Source of the DNA: Nitrospirota bacterium
Lineage (GTDB): Bacteria; Nitrospirota; Thermodesulfovibrionia; Thermodesulfovibrionales; JdFR-86
DNA length: 43,284 bases
Direction: 5' to 3'
Assembly: GCA_016207905.1 (NCBI GenBank)
Contig: JACQZC010000036.1
Location: 1 to 43,284 of the forward strand
Part shown: piece by piece, positions 17,154-27,269 of the stretch
Layout of the letters: every line of letters begins with the position of its first letter
Position numbering within the stretch: the first letter of the stretch is position 1
The notes under the pieces: model-generated
The model's input: only the letters and a program-made list of their open reading frames with translations
What the model was told of the DNA's origin: nothing
Database searches by the model: none
Made by a program: the position numbers and the translations under genes

Positions 17154-18998
17154 ATGCCTATGAAATCTATCTTCAATAAACCTCTCCTTCACCTCATCCT
17201 TATAGCCCTCATTGGCATTCTTTCATACTCAAACACCTTCAATTCGCCCTTTCAGTGGGATGAGGAGTTTTTTATAGCCAAAAACCCTATTATCAAAGAC
17301 CTCTCTTACTTTCTTGAGCCATCAAAGGCAAAAGGGCTTGAACTTTACCCCGCACTTAAAAGCAGATATATTGGTTACCTCACATTCGCACTAAACTATA
17401 AACTTCACGGTCTTGATGTCAGGGGCTATCATATCTTTAATCTTACAATTCACATCCTCAATGCCATGCTTGTGTATTTTCTTGTTGTATTGACTTTCAG
17501 GACTCCGTTTCTGTCATTGCGATGCCGAAACATCGGCAGAAGCAATCTCATCGCCCTTTTCTCCGCCCTTGTTTTTGTCTCACATCCTATTCAAACAGAG
17601 GCTGTAACATATATATTTCAGAGGCTTGCCTCGCTCTGTGCATTTTTCTATCTTTTTTCGCTTGTGCTTTATATTAAGTGGAGGCTTGCCTCCTACAACC
17701 CCCTCCCTCGAGGGGAGGGGGCGAGGGGGAGGGTGATACCTCTATTACTCTACCTTGCCAGCATTCTTTCAGCTATCCTTGCAATGAAGACAAAGGAAAA
17801 TGCATTTACACTTCCTCTTGTCATTGCCCTTTATGAGTTCTTCTTCTTTAAAGGCTCTTTAGGTAAGAGAGTTCTTTATCTTATTCCCTTACTTCTGACA
17901 ATGCTTATTATTCCCCTCACTCTTATAGGCATCGATAAGCCTGTTGGAGAGATAATAAGCGGGCTTGGAGATGTCACAGAAGGATATGGAGGAATATCGA
18001 GATGGGATTATCTTTTAACCCAGTTCAGAGTTGTGGTTACATATATAAGGCTTTTATTTCTACCGATAAACCAGAACATTGGTTATGATTACCCTATATC
18101 CAATTCATTTTTAAATCCACAGGTGTTTTTGTCCTTTCTTTTTCTAATTTTTGTTTTTAGCTCTGCTTTTTATTTTCTTATAAGGTCTAAGTTCTCTCCT
18201 GTATTAAGGTTTATTTCCTTTGGAATCTTCTGGTTTTTTATAACCCTTTCAGTTGAGTCCTCCATTATACCAATACCAATGTGGATTAATGAATACAGGG
18301 TTTATCTGCCTTCCGTGGGAGTATTTATAGTATTTGTCGTGGGAGCATCCATATTTCTGCAAAAAATTAAAAAACGATATCTGCAAATAGGAGTAGTTTT
18401 CTTTTTAGCTATCATAACAGTTTCTCTTTCATATGCCTCATACAGCAGAAACAGCGTATGGACAAGCAAGATAAGCCTCTGGGAGGATACTGTAAGGAAA
18501 TCTCCCCGGATGGCAACAGCGCATAACATCCTTGCCCTCGCCTACAGTTCCAATGGCTTGGTTGACAAGGCAATAGAGCATTTTCAGAAAGCATTAAGGC
18601 TTGAGCCTTTTTTTGCAGATGCATACAATAATCTCGGTATTGAATTTTATAAGAAGGGTTTTGTTAATCAGGCAATAGAGCATTTTCAGAGTGCCTTAAA
18701 AGTGAAGCCCGATTTTGAAGAGATACATAATAACCTCGGTAACGCATACTATAAGAAGGGCTTATTCAATCAGGCTATAGAACATTTTCAGTCTGCCTTG
18801 AGACTAAAGCCTGATTATTCAGAAGCACATTTTAATCTTGGGCTTCTTTACCTTGACATAGGGGAACAGAGAAAAGCATATGAAGAATTTGAAAAAACAT
18901 TACAAATAAATCCCAACTTCTATCAAGCCCGAAAATACTTAATGGATATAAATAAAACTAATTCCCCTTATCCTGCAAATTATCCTACAAAGCAGTAG
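17154..18998 (+). CDS. TMTC-like polytopic membrane protein with C-terminal TPRs
   Basis: 614 residues. About ten hydrophobic segments occupy 1-425, with SNTFNSPFQWDE near 27-38 and HPIQTEAVTYIFQR near 145, the pattern of the TMTC (GT-C fold, O-mannosyltransferase-related) family; FRVVVTYIRLLFLPINQN fits the conserved middle region (DUF1736). Residues about 450-600 hold four TPRs (IEHFQKALRLEPF, IEHFQSALKVKPD and so on). It may transfer sugar to exported proteins, which is unproven. Two short segments, RCRNIGRSNL and NPLPRGEGARGRV, are translated from palindromic repeats lying in frame. A decayed paralogue starts with MKSIS, so the second ATG (17160) may be the true start; neither has a clear ribosome-binding site. 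Confidence 0.82.
   Translation: MPMKSIFNKPLLHLILIALIGILSYSNTFNSPFQWDEEFFIAKNPIIKDLSYFLEPSKAKGLELYPALKSRYIGYLTFALNYKLHGLDVRGYHIFNLTIHILNAMLVYFLVVLTFRTPFLSLRCRNIGRSNLIALFSALVFVSHPIQTEAVTYIFQRLASLCAFFYLFSLVLYIKWRLASYNPLPRGEGARGRVIPLLLYLASILSAILAMKTKENAFTLPLVIALYEFFFFKGSLGKRVLYLIPLLLTMLIIPLTLIGIDKPVGEIISGLGDVTEGYGGISRWDYLLTQFRVVVTYIRLLFLPINQNIGYDYPISNSFLNPQVFLSFLFLIFVFSSAFYFLIRSKFSPVLRFISFGIFWFFITLSVESSIIPIPMWINEYRVYLPSVGVFIVFVVGASIFLQKIKKRYLQIGVVFFLAIITVSLSYASYSRNSVWTSKISLWEDTVRKSPRMATAHNILALAYSSNGLVDKAIEHFQKALRLEPFFADAYNNLGIEFYKKGFVNQAIEHFQSALKVKPDFEEIHNNLGNAYYKKGLFNQAIEHFQSALRLKPDYSEAHFNLGLLYLDIGEQRKAYEEFEKTLQINPNFYQARKYLMDINKTNSPYPANYPTKQ
17513..17549. repeat. Intragenic palindromic repeat ('GTCATTGCGA...GAAGCAATCTC' family)
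   Basis: An outer inverted repeat ATTGC/GCAAT (17516-17520 and 17542-17546) encloses TGCCGA/TCGGCA (17523-17528 and 17533-17538). This is the common bacterial interspersed palindrome that yields LRG.E.RSN-like peptides. Here it is read in frame inside the TMTC-like gene. A different version sits at the matching place in the paralogue at 42551-42586. Confidence 0.75.
17699..17735. repeat. Intragenic GC-rich palindromic repeat (CCCTCCCTCGAGGGGAGGG family)
   Basis: A pyrimidine-rich arm followed by a purine-rich arm around a central CTCGAG, then a GAGGGGGAGGGTG tail. It is translated in frame as PLPRGEGARGRV between two hydrophobic segments of the TMTC-like protein. Related copies are at 32474-32510, 32528-32562, 41301-41339 and 42371-42408. 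Confidence 0.8.
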
Positions 18999-19021: not shown

Positions 19022-19050
19022 TTCAAAACGATTGCCTCCATTGTTATAAT
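19022..19050 (+). promoter_or_regulatory. Putative promoter of the propeller/CHAT/cyclase gene series
   Basis: A perfect TATAAT at 19045-19050 is preceded 17 bases upstream by TTCAAA (19022-19027), a moderate -35 match. It is followed by the ribosome-binding site AAGGGAGG at 19063-19070 and the ATG at 19076. This is the best promoter candidate for the plus-strand genes to 27269, which have short gaps between them. Confidence 0.5.
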
Positions 19051-19075
19051 AACCTGTGTTTGAAGGGAGGATGTA

Positions 19076-20194
19076 ATGTTAAGGCCAAAAATGGCAATCG
19101 TAGTGGTTGCCACGATTGTTGGCATCGGGGGTTATTCGTCCTATGGCATTACCCAGCAAAAAGACACTTCTTATGCAGTAATGTTTCGGGCAGACATCCA
19201 GCATACAGGCGTTTATGACACAAATGCCGTGTCATCCTTTGGAGGGCTAAAGTGGCGTTTTAGGGCAAGAGGCGGAGTTCACTCCTCGCCTATCTCAACC
19301 GATAGGGCGGTTTATTTTGGAAGTAAGAATGGAAACCTCTATGCAGTTGACATAGGAACTGGTAAGGAGCTCTGGAGGTTTAAGACAGGCGGCGCTATAA
19401 TCTCCACGCCTGCCATGGCAGATGAAGTGCTCTATTTTGGAAGCAGTGATGGAAACCTTTATGCAGTTGACATAAGGGCTGGTAATGAGCTCTGGAGGTT
19501 TAAGGCAGGTGCTCCTGTGATTTCCTCTCCTGCCATTGACAACGGAGTGATTTTTTTTGGGAGTAACAACGGAACATTCTATGCAGTAGACATTAAAACA
19601 AAAAGGGAAATCTGGATATTCGAAACAGGAGACGAGGTGAATTCCTCTCCTGCCATAGCTAATGGAATAGTCTACTTTGGCAGCAGCGATGGAAATCTCT
19701 ATGCAGTTGACATAAAAAGCGGTTTAGAGAAATGGAAGTTCAGGACAAAAGGCCGTGTATGTTCCTCACCTGCTATTTCAGGAGGGGCAGTGTATTTCGG
19801 AAGCTGGGATGGAAACCTCTATGCAGTTGATGCAATCACCGGGGCTGAGATATGGAGATTCCAGACAAGGGGCTGGGTGAATTCCTCGCCTGCTATTTCA
19901 GGAGGGGCTGTGTATTTCGGAAGCTTCGATAGAACCCTCTATGCAGTGGACATAAGGGCTGGAAAGGAAAGGTGGCGGTTCAGAACGAGGGACTGGGTGA
20001 ATTCCTCGCCTTCTATAGCCGAAGATATAGTTTACTTTGGAAGCTACGACAGAAACCTCTATGCAGTGGATGTTACAACCGGACAGGAGAAATGGAGATT
20101 CAGGACAAGGGGACTCGTGTATTCTTCCCCTCTAATAGCCAATGGGATAGTCTACTTTGGCAGTAATGATGGATTCCTCTATGCAGTTCACTGA
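19076..20194 (+). CDS. Exported PQQ-type beta-propeller repeat protein
   Basis: 372 residues. A hydrophobic N-terminus (about 7-24) would direct export or anchor the protein. The body is eight repeats of about 40 residues with the core YFGSxDGNLYAVD followed by GxExWRF, the PQQ-binding-like (BamB/quinoprotein) propeller motif. The repeats are also regular in DNA, with a 120-bp period, showing recent internal duplication. FRADIQHTGVYD before the first repeat is typical of the family. No catalytic dehydrogenase residues are seen, so a protein-binding or scaffold role is more likely than enzyme activity. AAGGGAGG five bases before the ATG supports the start. It is the first gene of the series ending in the CHAT, CHASE2 and FecR proteins. 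Confidence 0.9.
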   Translation: MLRPKMAIVVVATIVGIGGYSSYGITQQKDTSYAVMFRADIQHTGVYDTNAVSSFGGLKWRFRARGGVHSSPISTDRAVYFGSKNGNLYAVDIGTGKELWRFKTGGAIISTPAMADEVLYFGSSDGNLYAVDIRAGNELWRFKAGAPVISSPAIDNGVIFFGSNNGTFYAVDIKTKREIWIFETGDEVNSSPAIANGIVYFGSSDGNLYAVDIKSGLEKWKFRTKGRVCSSPAISGGAVYFGSWDGNLYAVDAITGAEIWRFQTRGWVNSSPAISGGAVYFGSFDRTLYAVDIRAGKERWRFRTRDWVNSSPSIAEDIVYFGSYDRNLYAVDVTTGQEKWRFRTRGLVYSSPLIANGIVYFGSNDGFLYAVH

Positions 20195-20219
20195 GTCCCT
20201 CGTTATGCCGTAAGCCATA

Positions 20220-21203
20220 ATGAAGACAGCCTGCACATGCGTCCTGATTATCGCCCTTGCTAATACATCAGCTTTTGCAGGCTCTTCTGCCGAAGAGCTC
20301 GAAAACAGGATTTACAATGCATATGGCAAAACCGGCATTAAGATTTTTAGGAACATGGACGGCATTAAGAGTGCACAGGATGTCATGGAAGATGCAGGTT
20401 TTTCTGAGTCCGAGATGGCTGAAATGCTCAAGTGGTTCGAGAAAGAAGCAGGCTCGCTCAACCAAAAGGCATTGGCATTTTATAACGGAGGCGATGTCCC
20501 TTCCGCAATCCCATACATAGAGACTGCCTTAGAGATAACCTCAAAGGTCTTAGGTAGAAAACACCCTGCAGTGGCAAAGGCACTTAATTTTCTCGCAGAG
20601 CTTTATAAACTGACAGAAAGGCATGCAGATGCAGAGCCACTTTATAAATGGGTATTAGAGATAAATGAAGCAAGATACGGCAAAGACCATCCAGCAGTAG
20701 CAGCAGGCATCATAAACCTTGCCCTCCTTTATAAATCGATGTCAAGACACTCAGAGGCAGAGCCCCTCCTTTTGAGGGCACTCGATATATGCGAGACTAC
20801 ATATGGCAAAGACCATCAGACAGTCTCTGCAGTCATTACAAACCTTGCACTGCTTTACGACGAAAAAGGTAGGTACCAGGAGGCAGAGCCTCTTTATCTA
20901 AGGGCACTCACGATAGATGAAAAGGCATTGGGAGGAGAGCATCCCCAGCTTTTCACTACGCTCAATAACCTTGCCAGCCTTTATTTGTCAACAGGCAGAT
21001 ATGTAGATGCAGAGCCCCTTTATCTAAGGGCAATAAAGATAATGGATAAGGCATTGGGAGGAGAGCATCCCCAGCTTTCAACTACGCTCAATAACCTTGC
21101 CAGCCTTTATTTGTCAACAGGCAGATATGTAGATGCAGAGCCCCTTTATCTCAAGGAGATCGGAAGAGCAAAGAGGCAGAGGACTCCTATCTCAAGGCAC
21201 TGA
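20220..21203 (+). CDS. N-terminal part of an exported TPR-CHAT protein, broken by a frameshift
   Basis: 327 residues as read. A signal peptide covers 1-20 (cleavage after AFA), followed by about six kinesin-light-chain-type TPRs of 42 residues (consensus HPxLxTTLNNLAxLYxxxGRYxxAEPLYLRAL). The frame ends with a non-TPR tail after LYLKEIGRA. Inserting one A at about 21171-21172 (GCAAAGAGG to GCAAAAGAGG) restores KEAEDSYLKALNI and joins it to the downstream frame, which continues the TPRs and ends in a CHAT domain. The gene was therefore once (or still is, if this is an assembly error) a single protein of roughly 970 residues at 20220-23128. Confidence 0.85.
   Translation: MKTACTCVLIIALANTSAFAGSSAEELENRIYNAYGKTGIKIFRNMDGIKSAQDVMEDAGFSESEMAEMLKWFEKEAGSLNQKALAFYNGGDVPSAIPYIETALEITSKVLGRKHPAVAKALNFLAELYKLTERHADAEPLYKWVLEINEARYGKDHPAVAAGIINLALLYKSMSRHSEAEPLLLRALDICETTYGKDHQTVSAVITNLALLYDEKGRYQEAEPLYLRALTIDEKALGGEHPQLFTTLNNLASLYLSTGRYVDAEPLYLRAIKIMDKALGGEHPQLSTTLNNLASLYLSTGRYVDAEPLYLKEIGRAKRQRTPISRH
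20925..21176 (+). repeat. Two nearly identical 126-bp tandem repeats encoding TPR units
   Basis: Units start at 20925 and 21051 with GCATTGGGAGGAGAGC. They are exactly 126 bases (42 codons) apart and differ at only a few positions. A third, more diverged unit begins near 21218, 41 bases later than the period predicts, which would be 42 bases (14 codons) if the lost base were restored. The near identity suggests recent duplication or gene conversion and makes the area prone to slippage or assembly error. Confidence 0.85.
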
Positions 21204-21316
21204 ATATACTCGAGCGAGCATATGGCAGAGAGCATCCCCAGCTTTCAACCACGCTCAATAACCTTGCTCTCCTTTATTACTCAACAGGCAGATATGTAGA
21301 TGCAGAGCCGCTTTAT

Positions 21317-23128
21317 TTGAGGGCAATCGAGATCGGTGAGCGGACACTCGGCAAAGAGCATCCTGACCTGTCGGTATGGCTAAACAACCTTGCACTCCTT
21401 TATGCGGCAACAGGCAGACACGCCGAAAGCCAGAGGCTTTTTAGCCAGGCACTATTGATAGAGGACAAAAAAAGAGAAAATGTCTTTGCCGTTTTATCCG
21501 AAAAACAAAAGCTCTCCTACATGAAAAGAACCGAAGACAATATATATGCCTTCATCAGCCATTCAGCCCAGAATAAAGGAGACCCTGAAGTTACGCTGGA
21601 TGCATGGCTCAGATGGAAGGGCGCTGTTCATGAGGCACAAGGCAGGTATCTGAGTGCACTCATCGAGTCCCCTAATCCTGAGATAAAGCAGAAATTCGCC
21701 GAGCTTATCTCTATAAGGCGTATGCTTGCAAAAATAGGATTCTCCGACAAAGGTAACCTAACCTTAGAGGATTATAGAGGAAAGATAGAAAATCTGGAAA
21801 AGGAAAAGCAAAGATTAGAGATAGAGCTAAGCAGACTGAGCAAAGACTTTTCCCTCGAAAACCTCTCAGGCAAGGCTGATACAAAAAAAATAGCAGAACT
21901 CCTTCCTCTGGATGTCGCATATATAGATTTCGCAAACATATATTTCTATGACTTCCAGAAAAGAAATCGGGGCAAAGAGCATTACCTCGTCTTTATCCTT
22001 ACAGGAGGAGATAGCATCCATGTGAATCTTATCGACATTGGAGAGTCCGAAAAAATAAACAGTCATATCAATGCCTATTTAAGTGAGATGAAAAGTCCGT
22101 TAATCTTTGGAGCACTACCAAACAACGAGATACTAAAGAAAGACTCAAGGGCACTGTATGATGCACTCATAACGCCCATAGCAGGCTACCTCAAAGACAA
22201 AAAAAAGCTCTATATCAGCCCAGACAGTAACCTTAGCCTCATGCCATTTGAGGTCTTAACAAGCCCTTCTGGGGAATACCTCATAGAGGATTACCTTATA
22301 ACATATATAACTGCAGGCAGGGACATCGTCAGGTTCTCCGATACCACCCTTGCCGAGGGGATTGTGCTGATAATGGCAGACCCAGACTTTGACATGGCAG
22401 AGGCACTGCCAAAGGCAAAAGGGGTTAAAAAGCCCTTGCCTCTTTTATCTAAAGAGGCATCCACATTAAGATTTCAAAGGCTTCCTGATACAAAGGAGGA
22501 GGCAGATGAAATACAAAAGACCCTGAGGACGAGATACACGGTATTTAATTATCAGGACAAAAAGGCAGTCGAGGAAATGCTTTTTGGCAATAAAACTCCA
22601 CGCATCATTCATCTTGCCACACATGGGTTTTTCCTAAAAGATGTTGAGGTTAAAGAAGACGCACAGAGGCTTGGAATGCTCTCTGAGAGCTGGATTGGAA
22701 AAGAACCGCTATCAATAGAAAACCCGATGCTCCGTTCGGGAATAGTCTTTGCAGGAGCTAATACTTCCCTGAAGGAAGGAAAAGACGAGGGCATTGTGAG
22801 TGCCGAAAAAATATTAGGCTTGAGGCTCAATGGCACAGAGCTTGTCGTGCTTTCTGCATGCGATACAGGCACAGGGGATGTCAAAAAAGGCGAGGGAGTC
22901 TTTGGCTTGAAAAGGGCATTCATACTTGCTGGTGCAAAGACCCTGCTCATGAGCCTCTGGAGTGTTCCAAGTAAAGAGACAAAAGACATAATGATCGAGT
23001 TTTACACCTCGATGGCAAAAGGTAAGACAAAGGCCGAGGCACTGAGAGAGGCTAAATTAAATATGCTAAAGGGAGAAAATCCAAATCCATTTTTCTGGGC
23101 TCCATTTATACTCGTGGGGAAACCATAA
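21317..23128 (+). CDS. C-terminal part of the TPR-CHAT (caspase-like) protein
   Basis: 603 residues from the first ATG after the frameshift, though the coding frame extends back to about 21173. Residues 1-60 are TPRs, 60-170 a helical linker, and about 290-603 a CHAT domain, a caspase/separase-related protease fold. The catalytic pair is visible: H436 in HLATHGFF and C515 in VLSACDTGTG, and the C-terminus ends NPFFWAPFILVG as in other CHAT proteins. Coupled to the N-terminal part, the product would be exported, so it would act in the periplasm or at the surface. Without the first part, the ATG at 21317 lacks a signal peptide and a good ribosome-binding site. Confidence 0.85.
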   Translation: MRAIEIGERTLGKEHPDLSVWLNNLALLYAATGRHAESQRLFSQALLIEDKKRENVFAVLSEKQKLSYMKRTEDNIYAFISHSAQNKGDPEVTLDAWLRWKGAVHEAQGRYLSALIESPNPEIKQKFAELISIRRMLAKIGFSDKGNLTLEDYRGKIENLEKEKQRLEIELSRLSKDFSLENLSGKADTKKIAELLPLDVAYIDFANIYFYDFQKRNRGKEHYLVFILTGGDSIHVNLIDIGESEKINSHINAYLSEMKSPLIFGALPNNEILKKDSRALYDALITPIAGYLKDKKKLYISPDSNLSLMPFEVLTSPSGEYLIEDYLITYITAGRDIVRFSDTTLAEGIVLIMADPDFDMAEALPKAKGVKKPLPLLSKEASTLRFQRLPDTKEEADEIQKTLRTRYTVFNYQDKKAVEEMLFGNKTPRIIHLATHGFFLKDVEVKEDAQRLGMLSESWIGKEPLSIENPMLRSGIVFAGANTSLKEGKDEGIVSAEKILGLRLNGTELVVLSACDTGTGDVKKGEGVFGLKRAFILAGAKTLLMSLWSVPSKETKDIMIEFYTSMAKGKTKAEALREAKLNMLKGENPNPFFWAPFILVGKP

Positions 23129-23134
23129 ACTTTA

Positions 23135-24913
23135 ATGGGCAAACGAAAACCATATAGCTACATGATTGCAGTAGGAGTAGCAGTCCTTCTCCTCATAAGT
23201 TATAACTTATGGGAAGGCATCGAGCTAAAGGCATATGATTTCAGGCTTAGGACACTGGAATCCTTAAGCCTGAGTAAGGACACATACACAGGCAATGTGG
23301 TTATAGTTGGCATGGAGGAGGACTCCATGATTAAGGAAAAGCCTCTAATCTTCTGGTATCCTGACATCGGCTTATTCCTCGAGAGGATGAAAGACTATGG
23401 CGCCTCTGTCATAGGGATTGACCTCATAGCAGTGCATTCGCTTGGCGAAAAGATAAATTCCGCTTTTGAATCGGTAACCGACGAATCCGACAAACAGCAC
23501 ATAGGCTTTCTCAAAGATTTAGGCGAAAGACTCGATAACTCCCTTCTTAGGAATATCCTTTCAGCCTCAGAGAAGCTCTGCATCATACAGGCAGTGGCAG
23601 AGGGAACCGTGCCATACTATTTCCCCTCCATGGCATTCATGAAAAATGTCCATCCTGCCTCTGTTAGACTCACCCCGGATATAGACCATATCATAAGAAG
23701 GCAGAGGTTTCCCGAGGAAAACAAGACAGGTCATTTTGCCTATGCCATATACAACGCCATTGGAGGGAAAAAAGACCCAAGCGAGATAATGCTTAATTAT
23801 TCCCTGAGAAAAAGCATCCCATATTATTCTTTTAAGGATGTTATGGAAGGCAAACTGACGAGGACCCTGTTTTCAGGGAAAACGGTTGTTCTTGGATACA
23901 TGACCCGATACGAGGATGTTCATTCCACGCCCATTAAAGAGCGGATTTCAGGGACAATGCTGCATGCACTGACAGTCGAGACGATGCTAAGCGGCACATC
24001 CCCGAGGAATGTCCCTTTTGGTATCGATGCAGTCATACTCGTTGTCTTAACAGCAATGGGTTTAGCACTATCCTTGAGACTGAGACCTTTTTCAGCCATA
24101 CTGGGAACACTCATCCTTATGGCAGGGTTTTTTTTGATAAACCTGAGTCTTTTTTATGCAGGCTATAGACTAACTCTTCTGCCTCATATCCTTTCTCCGC
24201 TCCTTGTGCTTACATTTATTTACCCATATAGATATATCGTAGAAGAAAGAAGCAGAAAAAAAATATATAAAACCTTCAGCTACTACATAGACAGAAAGGT
24301 CATAGATTCCCTCATAGAGAAAGACCCATCGGCACTTCTTAAGGGAGAATACAAGGACATCGCAATACTTTTCATTGACATCAGGGATTTCACCTCCATG
24401 TCCCAACAGCAGAAAGCCGAAAATATCGTAAGCCTTCTGAATGTATATTTTGGTAAAATAACCGATATAATCCAGAGACACAGTGGCTTTGTAAATAAGC
24501 TGATTGGAGACGGCATGATGGCTTTCTTTGGGACCGAGGAGCCTGTGGCTAATGCCCTCAGGGCATCAGTAGAAATCCTGAAGGAGACCGAGAGGATGAA
24601 TAACAATGGGCTTACGGCATCCCATATCGGCAACTGGACACTCAACATCGGCATAGGCATTCATTACGGAAGGGTTGTTATGGGTAATATCGGCTCCGAA
24701 AAGAAAATGGACTTTACGATAATAGGCGACCCTGTAAACATAGCATCTCGAATAGAGGGGCTTACGAAACAGCTCCAAAGAAAACTGCTCCTGAGTGGCT
24801 TTGCATATGAGATGGTTAAAGAAGAATTTAGTTTCAAATACCTCGGAGACTTTACTGTTAAGGGCAGCCAAGAGCCCCTAAGCATATATACGATAGAAGA
24901 AATGGGTCATTGA
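23135..24913 (+). CDS. CHASE2-domain membrane adenylate cyclase
   Basis: 592 residues. TM segment at 8-24, an extracytoplasmic CHASE2 domain (about 30-290), three TM segments (298-314, 319-341, 346-365) and a class III cyclase domain (about 400-590). Metal-binding aspartates are D415 (FIDIRDFT) and D459 (LIGDGMMAFFG). KKMDFTIIGDPVNIASR contains the lysine and aspartate that specify ATP and the Asn/Arg pair for catalysis, so cAMP is the expected product. CHASE2 senses an unknown external signal. The gene starts six bases after the CHAT gene ends, which points to a shared function: an envelope signal passed to cAMP, perhaps through the protease. Confidence 0.92.
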   Translation: MGKRKPYSYMIAVGVAVLLLISYNLWEGIELKAYDFRLRTLESLSLSKDTYTGNVVIVGMEEDSMIKEKPLIFWYPDIGLFLERMKDYGASVIGIDLIAVHSLGEKINSAFESVTDESDKQHIGFLKDLGERLDNSLLRNILSASEKLCIIQAVAEGTVPYYFPSMAFMKNVHPASVRLTPDIDHIIRRQRFPEENKTGHFAYAIYNAIGGKKDPSEIMLNYSLRKSIPYYSFKDVMEGKLTRTLFSGKTVVLGYMTRYEDVHSTPIKERISGTMLHALTVETMLSGTSPRNVPFGIDAVILVVLTAMGLALSLRLRPFSAILGTLILMAGFFLINLSLFYAGYRLTLLPHILSPLLVLTFIYPYRYIVEERSRKKIYKTFSYYIDRKVIDSLIEKDPSALLKGEYKDIAILFIDIRDFTSMSQQQKAENIVSLLNVYFGKITDIIQRHSGFVNKLIGDGMMAFFGTEEPVANALRASVEILKETERMNNNGLTASHIGNWTLNIGIGIHYGRVVMGNIGSEKKMDFTIIGDPVNIASRIEGLTKQLQRKLLLSGFAYEMVKEEFSFKYLGDFTVKGSQEPLSIYTIEEMGH

Positions 24914-24936
24914 CCCAATAAGAGGAGGTTTTAGAA

Positions 24937-25770
24937 ATGAAAAGGATTACTCTAATAGTCGTTTTCCTTCTTATGCCGCTCGTTGCCCATGGCAATGAGA
25001 AATTCGGCATGGTCTTTGATATCCAGGGCACTGTGGAGGTAAAGACCTCTGATGGAAGACTCATAAAATTAAGGAAAGACAGGCATGTCCTTTACCCAAT
25101 AAAAGATGGAGACAGGATTAATGTCATGGCAGGCGGAAGGGTCGTAATAGTGTCCATTAAGGGAAAACAAGGCTATGAAATCCTATCCAACTCATCAGTA
25201 GAAATCACCGAAGGCAGGATAAGGACAATCAAAGGGACTGTAAATATAAAAGAAGGCTTTCATGCACCCGAGGAAGGTGCTGGCGGACAAATAGGAGCGG
25301 TTGTCTTAAGAAGTTCAATCAAAGAGCCCTGCATAAGGACAGTGTCACCTGTAAATACTTCGATTCTCGACCTGACCCCTGAGCTCGTATGGAGGCTCGA
25401 CTGTAAGGGTATTAAGAAGGTCTCTGTTAGAATCCTTACTGGGAAAGATGTAATATTCAGCAGAGACACCGAGGTGAATTCCATGAAAGTCCCAGAAGGT
25501 ATTCTCAAATACGGAGAGACCTACAGGTGGCTTGTGGATGGAGGACCTGTCGGCATATTTGGCGGAACATTCTTAATTCCCGAAGAACAGGAAGTCAAAA
25601 ACATCAATGAGAAAATAGCCTCCCTAAAGGCAGGCAAAGACCTCTCGGAAAGGCTCTCTTATGTGTTTTACCTTCTCGGCAACGGGCTGAATGAGCATGC
25701 AAAATCCGAGATTGAACTTCTCGAAAGGGAGTTTCCTGAAAACGAATATATAAGGGAGCTGAAGAAATAA
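24937..25770 (+). CDS. Exported FecR-domain protein
   Basis: 277 residues. Signal peptide 1-19 (MPLVAHG-N), then a FecR-type beta-rich domain at about 20-130 (GTVEVKTSDGRLIKL, then VLYPIKDGDRINV and GGRVVIVS), a second beta domain (about 130-220, LTPELVWRLD) and a helical C-terminal tail. FecR domains classically relay outer-membrane signals to sigma factors, but free exported versions are common beside CHASE2 cyclases. No sigma factor gene is present here. AGGAGG lies 9 bases upstream of the ATG, supporting the start. Confidence 0.87.
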   Translation: MKRITLIVVFLLMPLVAHGNEKFGMVFDIQGTVEVKTSDGRLIKLRKDRHVLYPIKDGDRINVMAGGRVVIVSIKGKQGYEILSNSSVEITEGRIRTIKGTVNIKEGFHAPEEGAGGQIGAVVLRSSIKEPCIRTVSPVNTSILDLTPELVWRLDCKGIKKVSVRILTGKDVIFSRDTEVNSMKVPEGILKYGETYRWLVDGGPVGIFGGTFLIPEEQEVKNINEKIASLKAGKDLSERLSYVFYLLGNGLNEHAKSEIELLEREFPENEYIRELKK

Positions 25771-25793: not shown

Positions 25794-26633
25794 ATGAGGG
25801 AACTAAAGATTGCATACTCTCCCTGTCCTAACGATACATTCATATTCTATGGGCTCGTTCATGGACTGATAAAAACAAAAGGGCTCTCTTTTTCCGAGAC
25901 GCTAATCGATATAGATGCCCTTAACAAGAAGGCATTAAAGGAGGAGTTCGATGTTATAAAGGTCTCATACCACGCATTTGCCTTACTCAGGGACAAATAC
26001 TGTCTTATACGCTCAGGAGGGGCAATGGGTAGAGGATGTGGCCCACTCGTCGTTGCGAGACATAAATGCTCTATGAAGGATTTACAAGGCAAAAGGATTG
26101 CCATACCCGGAAGACTTACAACTGCATACCTTCTCCTTGAGCTTTATGACCCTCGGTTCAAAGGCAATGTATTGGTCATGAGGTTTAACGAGATTATGCC
26201 TGAAGTTGAAAGCGGTGAGGTAGATGCAGGGCTTATTATTCACGAGGGAAGATTTACATACAGGCAGTATGGCTTAAAATGCGTCAAAGACCTCGGTACA
26301 TGGTGGGAGAAAAAAACCGCTCAGGCTTTGCCTCTCGGAGCAATTGCAGTTAGAAGGTCACTCGGTAAAGACCTTATAGGTAAAATACAGTCCCTTATAC
26401 GGGAAAGCGTTCTTTACTCGCTAAGACATCCCTCGGAGCCAATGAGGTATATAAAAAGGCATTCAGAGGAGCTAAGCGACTCGGTCATTAAGAGGCATAT
26501 CAGCCTTTATGTAAATGACTACTCGATAGATATAGGAGAGGAAGGCATAAAGGCAGTCAGGGAGATGTTCAGGTTAGCAGGTGAGGCAGGGCTAATAAAA
26601 GGGTCACAGGAATTGTCCTTCGATGTGTTATAA
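25794..26633 (+). CDS. mqnD: 1,4-dihydroxy-6-naphthoate synthase (futalosine menaquinone pathway)
   Basis: 279 residues with the periplasmic-binding-protein fold of the MqnA/MqnD family. SPCPNDTFIFYGLVHG at 9-24, GRGCGPLVVARH near 78-89 and IHEGRFTYRQYGL near 146-158 are characteristic of MqnD, which converts cyclic dehypoxanthine futalosine to 1,4-dihydroxy-6-naphthoate. It implies menaquinone made by the futalosine route and a respiratory lifestyle. No other mqn gene is in the window. It follows the FecR gene by 23 bases, probably on the same transcript, though the functions appear unrelated. Confidence 0.92.
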   Translation: MRELKIAYSPCPNDTFIFYGLVHGLIKTKGLSFSETLIDIDALNKKALKEEFDVIKVSYHAFALLRDKYCLIRSGGAMGRGCGPLVVARHKCSMKDLQGKRIAIPGRLTTAYLLLELYDPRFKGNVLVMRFNEIMPEVESGEVDAGLIIHEGRFTYRQYGLKCVKDLGTWWEKKTAQALPLGAIAVRRSLGKDLIGKIQSLIRESVLYSLRHPSEPMRYIKRHSEELSDSVIKRHISLYVNDYSIDIGEEGIKAVREMFRLAGEAGLIKGSQELSFDVL

Positions 26634-26660: not shown

Positions 26661-27269
26661 ATGAAAAGACTTTTATTTTTAGTGGTTGCGTTTGTGTTTG
26701 TGATATCCTGCTCTAAGGGCATGACAGAAAAGTCCACTCAAAAAGGAGGAGATTACCTTGCAAAGGTAAATGACTCTGTTATAACGGATGAGACCCTGAA
26801 GAGGGAGATGAATGCCCTGCCGCCTGAGGTCAGAGACTTGTTTCTTCAAGAGGCAGGCATAGAGGGCCTTATAGAGGAACTCATTAAGAAAGAGCTTCTC
26901 TATCAGGAGGCAAAGAAAAAAGGGTATGAGAGGTCAGGCGAATTAAAAGACAAGATAGAGAATTTCAAAAAGCTCATGATGATCGAGCTACTGCTTAACG
27001 ATATGGTCGATAAAAAAGTAACTGTCTCTGAAAATGATGTCAGGGGCTATTACGAAAAGAACAAGGCTGATTTCGTCATGACAACTGGAAAGAAGAAAGA
27101 GCCTGTTTCCTTTGACATGGTAAAGGAGATTTTAAGGCAGAGGCTAACTGCCGAAAAACAGAAAAAGGCATTCGAGTCATATTTAAGTTCATTGGAAAAT
27201 GCATATACGATTCAACGCAACAAGGAGCGGATTTCTAATTTAGTCAACATGCCAAAGCCTAAACCTTAG
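26661..27269 (+). CDS. SurA N-terminal-like lipoprotein
   Basis: 202 residues. A lipobox (FVISC, C17) marks it as a lipoprotein. The body resembles the SurA/PpiD N-terminal chaperone domain: LAKVNDSVITDETLKREM, then LIEELIKKELLYQEAKKKGY and VSENDVRGYYEKNKADF. The usual parvulin prolyl isomerase domain is absent; after residue 150 only a short helical C-terminus (MVKEILRQRLTAEKQKKAFESYL) remains. It probably acts as a chaperone or holdase for exported proteins. AAGGAG precedes the ATG. It overlaps the converging regulator by 11 bases. Confidence 0.82.
   Translation: MKRLLFLVVAFVFVISCSKGMTEKSTQKGGDYLAKVNDSVITDETLKREMNALPPEVRDLFLQEAGIEGLIEELIKKELLYQEAKKKGYERSGELKDKIENFKKLMMIELLLNDMVDKKVTVSENDVRGYYEKNKADFVMTTGKKKEPVSFDMVKEILRQRLTAEKQKKAFESYLSSLENAYTIQRNKERISNLVNMPKPKP

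Follow-up and report, generated by a model that had tools for sequence, protein, structure and literature searches.

In magnetotactic bacteria the gene mtxA precedes the gene of an adenylate cyclase with a CHASE2 domain (PMC4439547). The CHASE2 cyclases of S. meliloti respond to a plant protein via the outer-membrane barrel protein NsrA (PMC13001267). A construct of CyaD1 without CHASE2 makes cyclic AMP (cAMP) constitutively (PMC5498481), and thus CHASE2 appears to restrain the cyclase in this protein. The ligands of CHASE2 domains are largely unknown (PMC5192318). Here we consider a stretch of 43,284 nucleotides from a Nitrospirota bacterium (contig C36 of a genome assembly of 2.03 Mb in 98 contigs), below called the window. 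Positions 20220-25770 encode a tetratricopeptide repeat (TPR) protein with a CHAT domain of the caspase fold, a CHASE2 adenylate cyclase and an MtxA-like protein. Judging from the sequence, this core could well be a three-part envelope signalling module, in which the protease would control the CHASE2 cAMP receptor via its MtxA-like partner, and we put it forward tentatively. The export signals and membrane topology of the module proteins are predicted.

The three kinds of genes recur together far beyond chance. The cyclase search identified relatives in Burkholderiales, Sulfurimicrobium and Desulfobulbaceae; at most of the full-length ones an MtxA-like gene adjoins the cyclase gene, and a gene of the CHAT or the Peptidase_C14 (C14) family is situated nearby. 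In a blind test, three other genome sets were searched with the MtxA-like profile alone, and the surroundings of the matches were then fetched. A CHASE2 gene lies within 500 bp of the MtxA-like gene in 26 of the 27 blind loci, as it does in the window. A CHAT or C14 gene, found by independent Pfam searches, lies within 10 kb in 19 of the 27, versus 0.5 expected from 81 CHAT/C14 genes in 92 Mb. This is approximately 40 times the expectation (P = 2e-28, a value that overstates the significance, as loci from related genomes count only in part as independent). When one locus per genome is retained, the protease gene is linked in 16 of 22, versus 0.39 expected, and when the window and the first-found relatives are added, at 29 of 40 loci. 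It is on the strand of the cyclase gene in all linked loci except two (L131 and L148). The nearest relative of the window, locus L037 of genome G004 from the same family, has the same gene order. Full-length matches to the MtxA-like protein were found in 2 of 396 genomes of the phylum of the window, and this sparseness fits horizontal spread of the set.

An earlier note on this DNA had proposed a set of four families, starting with an exported beta-propeller, and had named conserved linkage as one test. Linkage beyond chance, observed in several phyla, holds for the CHAT, CHASE2 cyclase and MtxA-like genes but gives no support for the propeller as a member. The propeller was rejected as a fourth component, being absent beside the module in L037, where the upstream neighbour is encoded on the opposite strand and is unrelated to the propeller by search.

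CHAT and C14 are different families of the caspase fold. The type of the protease changes at least four times among the labelled rows of the cyclase tree, which is a best-tree count on a tree with several weakly supported deep forks. Such repeated exchange at the same place suggests that the module depends on proteolysis as such, and does not indicate the substrate. By a simple hydropathy score, an export-like N-terminus is present in all 16 linked CHAT proteins outside the window and in 13 of 14 linked C14 proteins. However, an export signal alone does not mark the module, since the other CHAT protein of the window genome also has an export-like N-terminus by eye, and the survey of export covered linked CHAT genes. 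In loci L066 (1563-8802) and L068 (1484-8912) the CHAT gene beside the module is flanked by a large gene, which in L066 encodes a TPS secretion domain by profile, and by a gene for an outer-membrane protein of the ShlB type. These neighbours hint that the target or the output could be an adhesin.

The product of the last gene of the core had been taken for a FecR protein. This identity was not upheld: PF04773 does not match P0005 or ten relatives at E up to 1, and NCBIfam gave no match. The AlphaFold2 model (mean predicted local distance difference test score, pLDDT, of 80) consists of a beta domain, a low-confidence linker at residues 108-129, an immunoglobulin-like (Ig-like) domain and TPR-like helices, following a hydrophobic N-terminus that predicts export. 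The C-terminal domain of MtxA (PDB 4z29) aligns to residues 133-277 with Z 9.6 and a root-mean-square deviation of 3.7 over 135 residues (14% identity). Among the solved structures listed, no other alignment extends across the Ig-like part and the TPR part as far as residue 277; those that reach a similar Z are domains of the fibronectin type, some 80 residues long. A search of PDB sequences with the MtxA-like profile gave no match, the C-terminal part of MtxA being the only part with a solved structure. By the architecture of the model (exported, with a beta-rich N-terminus, an Ig-like domain and a C-terminal TPR) the protein is assigned to the MtxA type. For its N-terminal beta domain a match was obtained with Z 10.8 over 71 residues to PDB 5ix9, a "Cell surface anchoring domain"; the LapG-like reading raised by this match is retained as no more than an analogy.

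The linker contains Arg125, conserved in 40 of 41 MtxA-like proteins, mostly with a preceding methionine, within otherwise variable sequence. Only L151 departs from this, and it is at the same time the single locus that lacks CHASE2. Cleavage after basic residues is common among proteases of the caspase fold from organisms other than animals. In MtxA, trypsin cuts before the Ig-like domain, as the crystallised fragment starts at residue 142, and therefore this stretch is accessible. Arg125 is thus a candidate cut site of the protease, which is suggestive only. Weak matches to DUF928 were also obtained for four of the aligned MtxA-like proteins, which may point to a relationship between the two families. 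A CHAT gene and a DUF928 gene are immediate neighbours in locus L155 (9018-12221), which belongs to a distant family in the phylum of the window. In loci L140, L141 and L143 the MtxA-like gene is duplicated in tandem, and the copies lie between the genes of the CHASE2 cyclase and the C14 protein.

The cyclase of the window has its CHASE2 domain between one and three membrane helices, followed by the cyclase domain, the arrangement by which CHASE2 cyclases were recognised. It retains both metal-binding aspartates, Lys455, Thr528, Asn535 and Arg539, which we take to be the ATP-type residue set of class III cyclases. The ATP-type active site described in the earlier note is thus borne out at the level of residues. 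On the cyclase tree the protein clusters with those of L037, L148 and L149 (support 100/100). The window genome encodes seven cNMP-binding domains that could read a cAMP signal. Another contig of it, C77, carries a second CHASE2 cyclase gene, overlapped by an upstream exported gene that is FecR-like by eye (L039, 6390-9541). In L147 (4649-11794) an MtxA-like gene adjoins the gene of a CHASE2 protein without a recognised output domain, accompanied by a fusion of a WD40 propeller with a C14 caspase, whose dyad was not picked up by the motif scan.

The following mechanism may be suggested. Firstly, the module would have three components: a CHAT protease that is exported and carried on TPRs, an MtxA-like protein that is likewise exported, and a CHASE2 receptor of the inner membrane that makes cAMP. 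Secondly, the MtxA-like protein would bind the CHASE2 ectodomain, or present a signal to it, outside the cytoplasm. Thirdly, the protease would act on the MtxA-like protein, perhaps in the linker with the near-invariant Arg125. The altered protein would change the state of the receptor and hence the cAMP output. Finally, cAMP would be read by proteins of the CRP type. The specific proposal that an exported caspase-fold protease, CHAT or C14 being evolutionarily interchangeable, cuts the MtxA-like protein outside the cytoplasm and thereby switches the transmembrane cAMP receptor is rather unlikely as it stands. If it is true, a relative of caspases would use proteolysis to pass a signal through the inner membrane to a second messenger.

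The idea of a periplasmic protease-like switch on cAMP output, raised in the earlier note, is now in part better supported, because the linkage holds for three genes in several phyla and the active-site residues are kept. On the other hand, the propeller has dropped out, the partner is not FecR and the CHAT gene is frame-broken; proteolysis and control of the cyclase stay hypothetical. Several observations speak against such a switch. As sequenced, the CHAT gene of the window itself is broken. At eight of the 27 blind loci, some of which lie at contig ends, there is no gene of the caspase fold within 10 kb. Some linked cyclases vary at the lysine position, and the CHASE2 protein of L147 lacks a recognised cyclase domain. 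Deletion of mtxA in Magnetospirillum had no visible phenotype. Arg125 is also kept at loci without a nearby protease gene, and thus its role may be structural.

Alternatively, the MtxA-like protein may serve the CHASE2 cyclase as a co-receptor in a way that does not involve proteolysis. The caspase-fold protein would then be an output, or a separate envelope-processing enzyme acting, for example, on surface adhesins, that is co-regulated with the receptor complex but does not cut it. Indeed, the MtxA-like gene is more often accompanied by CHASE2 (26 of 27) than by the protease gene (19 of 27), ShlB-type genes lie between or beside the set in L066 and L068, with a TPS adhesin gene by profile in L066, and partners of the NsrA and FecR types work or cluster with CHASE2 elsewhere with no protease described. 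However, the repeated exchange of caspase-fold families at the same place suggests that proteolysis is needed, although it does not point to the substrate. This alternative is somewhat doubtful but has to be kept in mind beside the proteolytic switch.

The reading frame of the TPR-CHAT gene is broken near position 21157, where an array of 126-bp repeats ends. The N-terminal frame, which contains most of the TPRs, has its stop at 21203. The CHAT-bearing frame is open from 21095, its first listed start codon is TTG at 21317, and it has no hydrophobic segment of its own. When both frames are read, a part of a TPR unit is apparently missing at the junction. The exported TPR protein with CHAT reported previously is therefore present in all its parts, namely the signal peptide, the TPRs and the CHAT domain, but is split over two frames. 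In L037 a single intact frame of 1017 aa aligns to both halves, the N-terminal one being 40% identical to it over 303 aa; the relatives searched for comparison included no second genome of the genus of the host. A structure of P0003 predicted from the single sequence had a mean pLDDT of 37 and was not used. At the break there is a 13-mer, AGATCGGAAGAGC, identical to the core of the Illumina adapter; it did not arise in 100 shuffles of the window. It is possibly a leftover adapter in the assembly. The break is most likely an assembly error, because it coincides with the end of the repeat array and with the only copy of AGATCGGAAGAGC in the whole genome. If it were real, the protease gene would be a recent pseudogene, and the module would be reduced here to the MtxA-like protein and the CHASE2 cyclase. 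The break is present in the assembly as given, tandem repeats are prone to true slippage, and some related loci (L058, L061, L065, L128, L129) have no nearby protease gene. Nevertheless a real break is unlikely, as the adapter-core 13-mer stands exactly at this point and nowhere else in the genome, and the remaining 656 codons on the CHAT side run on without a stop codon, with 48% identity to the intact relative.

The CHAT profile PF12770 matches the window protein over positions 2-289 of 289 (248 bits), including the His/Cys dyad. The pair named in the earlier note, H436 and C515, could be located to codons (Table 1), and neither residue varies among the linked CHAT proteins examined. That the CHAT domain is a binding scaffold or an inactive relative is improbable: no activity is known for these CHAT proteins and their long TPR part suits protein binding, but the dyad is kept in all 17 linked CHAT domains despite an overall identity of 20-25%, and in 13 of the 14 linked C14 proteins that stand in the place of CHAT. 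A chance or hitch-hiking association of the genes would agree with the sparseness of the set in the phylum, but is hardly credible given the blind test, in which linkage in separate taxa was some 40 times the expectation, and the exchange of the protease type.

The close spacing on one strand of the propeller, TPR-CHAT, CHASE2 cyclase and MtxA-like genes, with gaps of 25, 6 and 23 bases, agrees with the earlier note. The four are indeed co-directional, but the run is longer, with a TPR gene before them and VitK2_biosynth and SurA/PPIase genes after them. No transcript start is claimed, because promoter-like sites are no more frequent than in shuffles. A reading as anti-phage defence was rejected, PADLOC giving only a generic class III cyclase (PycC) and TPR similarity.

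Table 1. Features of the TPR-CHAT, CHASE2 cyclase and MtxA-like gene region (positions in the window)
Feature	Position	Strand	Remarks
TPR gene	17154-18998	+	precedes propeller gene, 77-base spacing
PQQ/BamB-type propeller gene	19076-20194	+	neighbour, outside the conserved module
TPR-CHAT gene, whole extent	20220-23128	+	two frames as sequenced
N-terminal part of TPR-CHAT gene	20220-21203	+	encodes 327 aa up to the break, with predicted signal peptide and TPRs
Near-identical 126-bp tandem repeat	20883-21156	+	2.2 copies, within TPR region, ends at the break
13-mer AGATCGGAAGAGC	21157-21169	+	at the frame break, single copy in genome
Rest of TPR-CHAT gene, other frame	21158-23128	+	last TPRs and CHAT domain
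CHAT dyad His codon CAT	22622-22624	+	H436 of the 603-aa frame
CHAT dyad Cys codon TGC	22859-22861	+	C515 of the 603-aa frame
CHASE2 and class III adenylate cyclase gene	23135-24913	+	592 aa
MtxA-like exported protein gene (FecR in the earlier note)	24937-25770	+	beta domain, linker, Ig-like domain, TPR
Arg125 codon, linker	25309-25311	+	hypothetical cut site, kept in 40 of 41 relatives
VitK2_biosynth gene	25794-26633	+	23-base gap after MtxA-like gene
SurA/PPIase gene	26661-27269	+	27-base gap after VitK2_biosynth gene

The CHASE2-FecR neighbourhoods (PMC5192318, PMC9239204), the MtxA-CHASE2 pair and the cyanobacterial fusion of CHASE2 with a metacaspase (PMC3501461) are already known. In the open-licence literature, which lacks most subscription journals, no description was found in which the pair of CHASE2 cyclase and MtxA-like protein is joined by an exported protease of the caspase fold, nor any paper describing a set of CHAT with CHASE2, FecR, DUF928 or adenylate cyclase. 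Thus the protease component of the CHASE2 module appears to be undescribed. The module associates a group of CHASE2 cyclases with an exported partner of defined type and with a protease of the caspase fold, and it offers a candidate cut site. Linked sets occur in named cultured strains, for example of Massilia, Pseudoduganella and Undibacterium; the sets of Massilia glaciei (L059) and Pseudoduganella ginsengisoli (L060) are intact. Two questions become testable, namely the role of exported bacterial relatives of caspases and the way in which CHASE2 cyclases are switched.

Among the described systems, the mtxA-CHASE2 pair (PMC4439547; PDB 4z29) has in common with the window an exported beta/Ig-like/TPR protein encoded next to a CHASE2 cyclase. 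However, no caspase-fold protease is mentioned there, and the window protein resembles MtxA in fold and not, by the PDB search, in detectable sequence. The CHASE2 cyclase clusters of Campylobacterota (PMC9239204) share an exported partner, a TPR protein and horizontal spread, but contain a FecR-domain outer-membrane protein and a phosphodiesterase, again with no mention of a caspase-fold protease. The S. meliloti cyclases CyaD1, CyaD2 and CyaK with NsrA and Clr (PMC13001267, PMC5498481) are likewise CHASE2 cyclases fed by an envelope protein, with a CRP-type reader of cAMP. Here the partner is an outer-membrane barrel, and no protease gene was seen beside cyaK. A FecR-domain gene overlaps cyaK, and its product also resembles TPR and barrel proteins. 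The BiofilmReg operon of Burkholderia (PMC5192318) encodes a periplasmic LysM-FecR protein beside a CHASE2 receptor, but the output is a histidine kinase and a response regulator instead of a cyclase, and no protease is mentioned. Finally, in the Trichodesmium CHASE2-metacaspase fusion (PMC3501461) a caspase-fold domain is also tied to a CHASE2 sensor. The fusion is, however, a single membrane protein with the protease predicted to be cytoplasmic, whereas in the window the protease is a separate protein, predicted to be exported, and the output is a cyclase.

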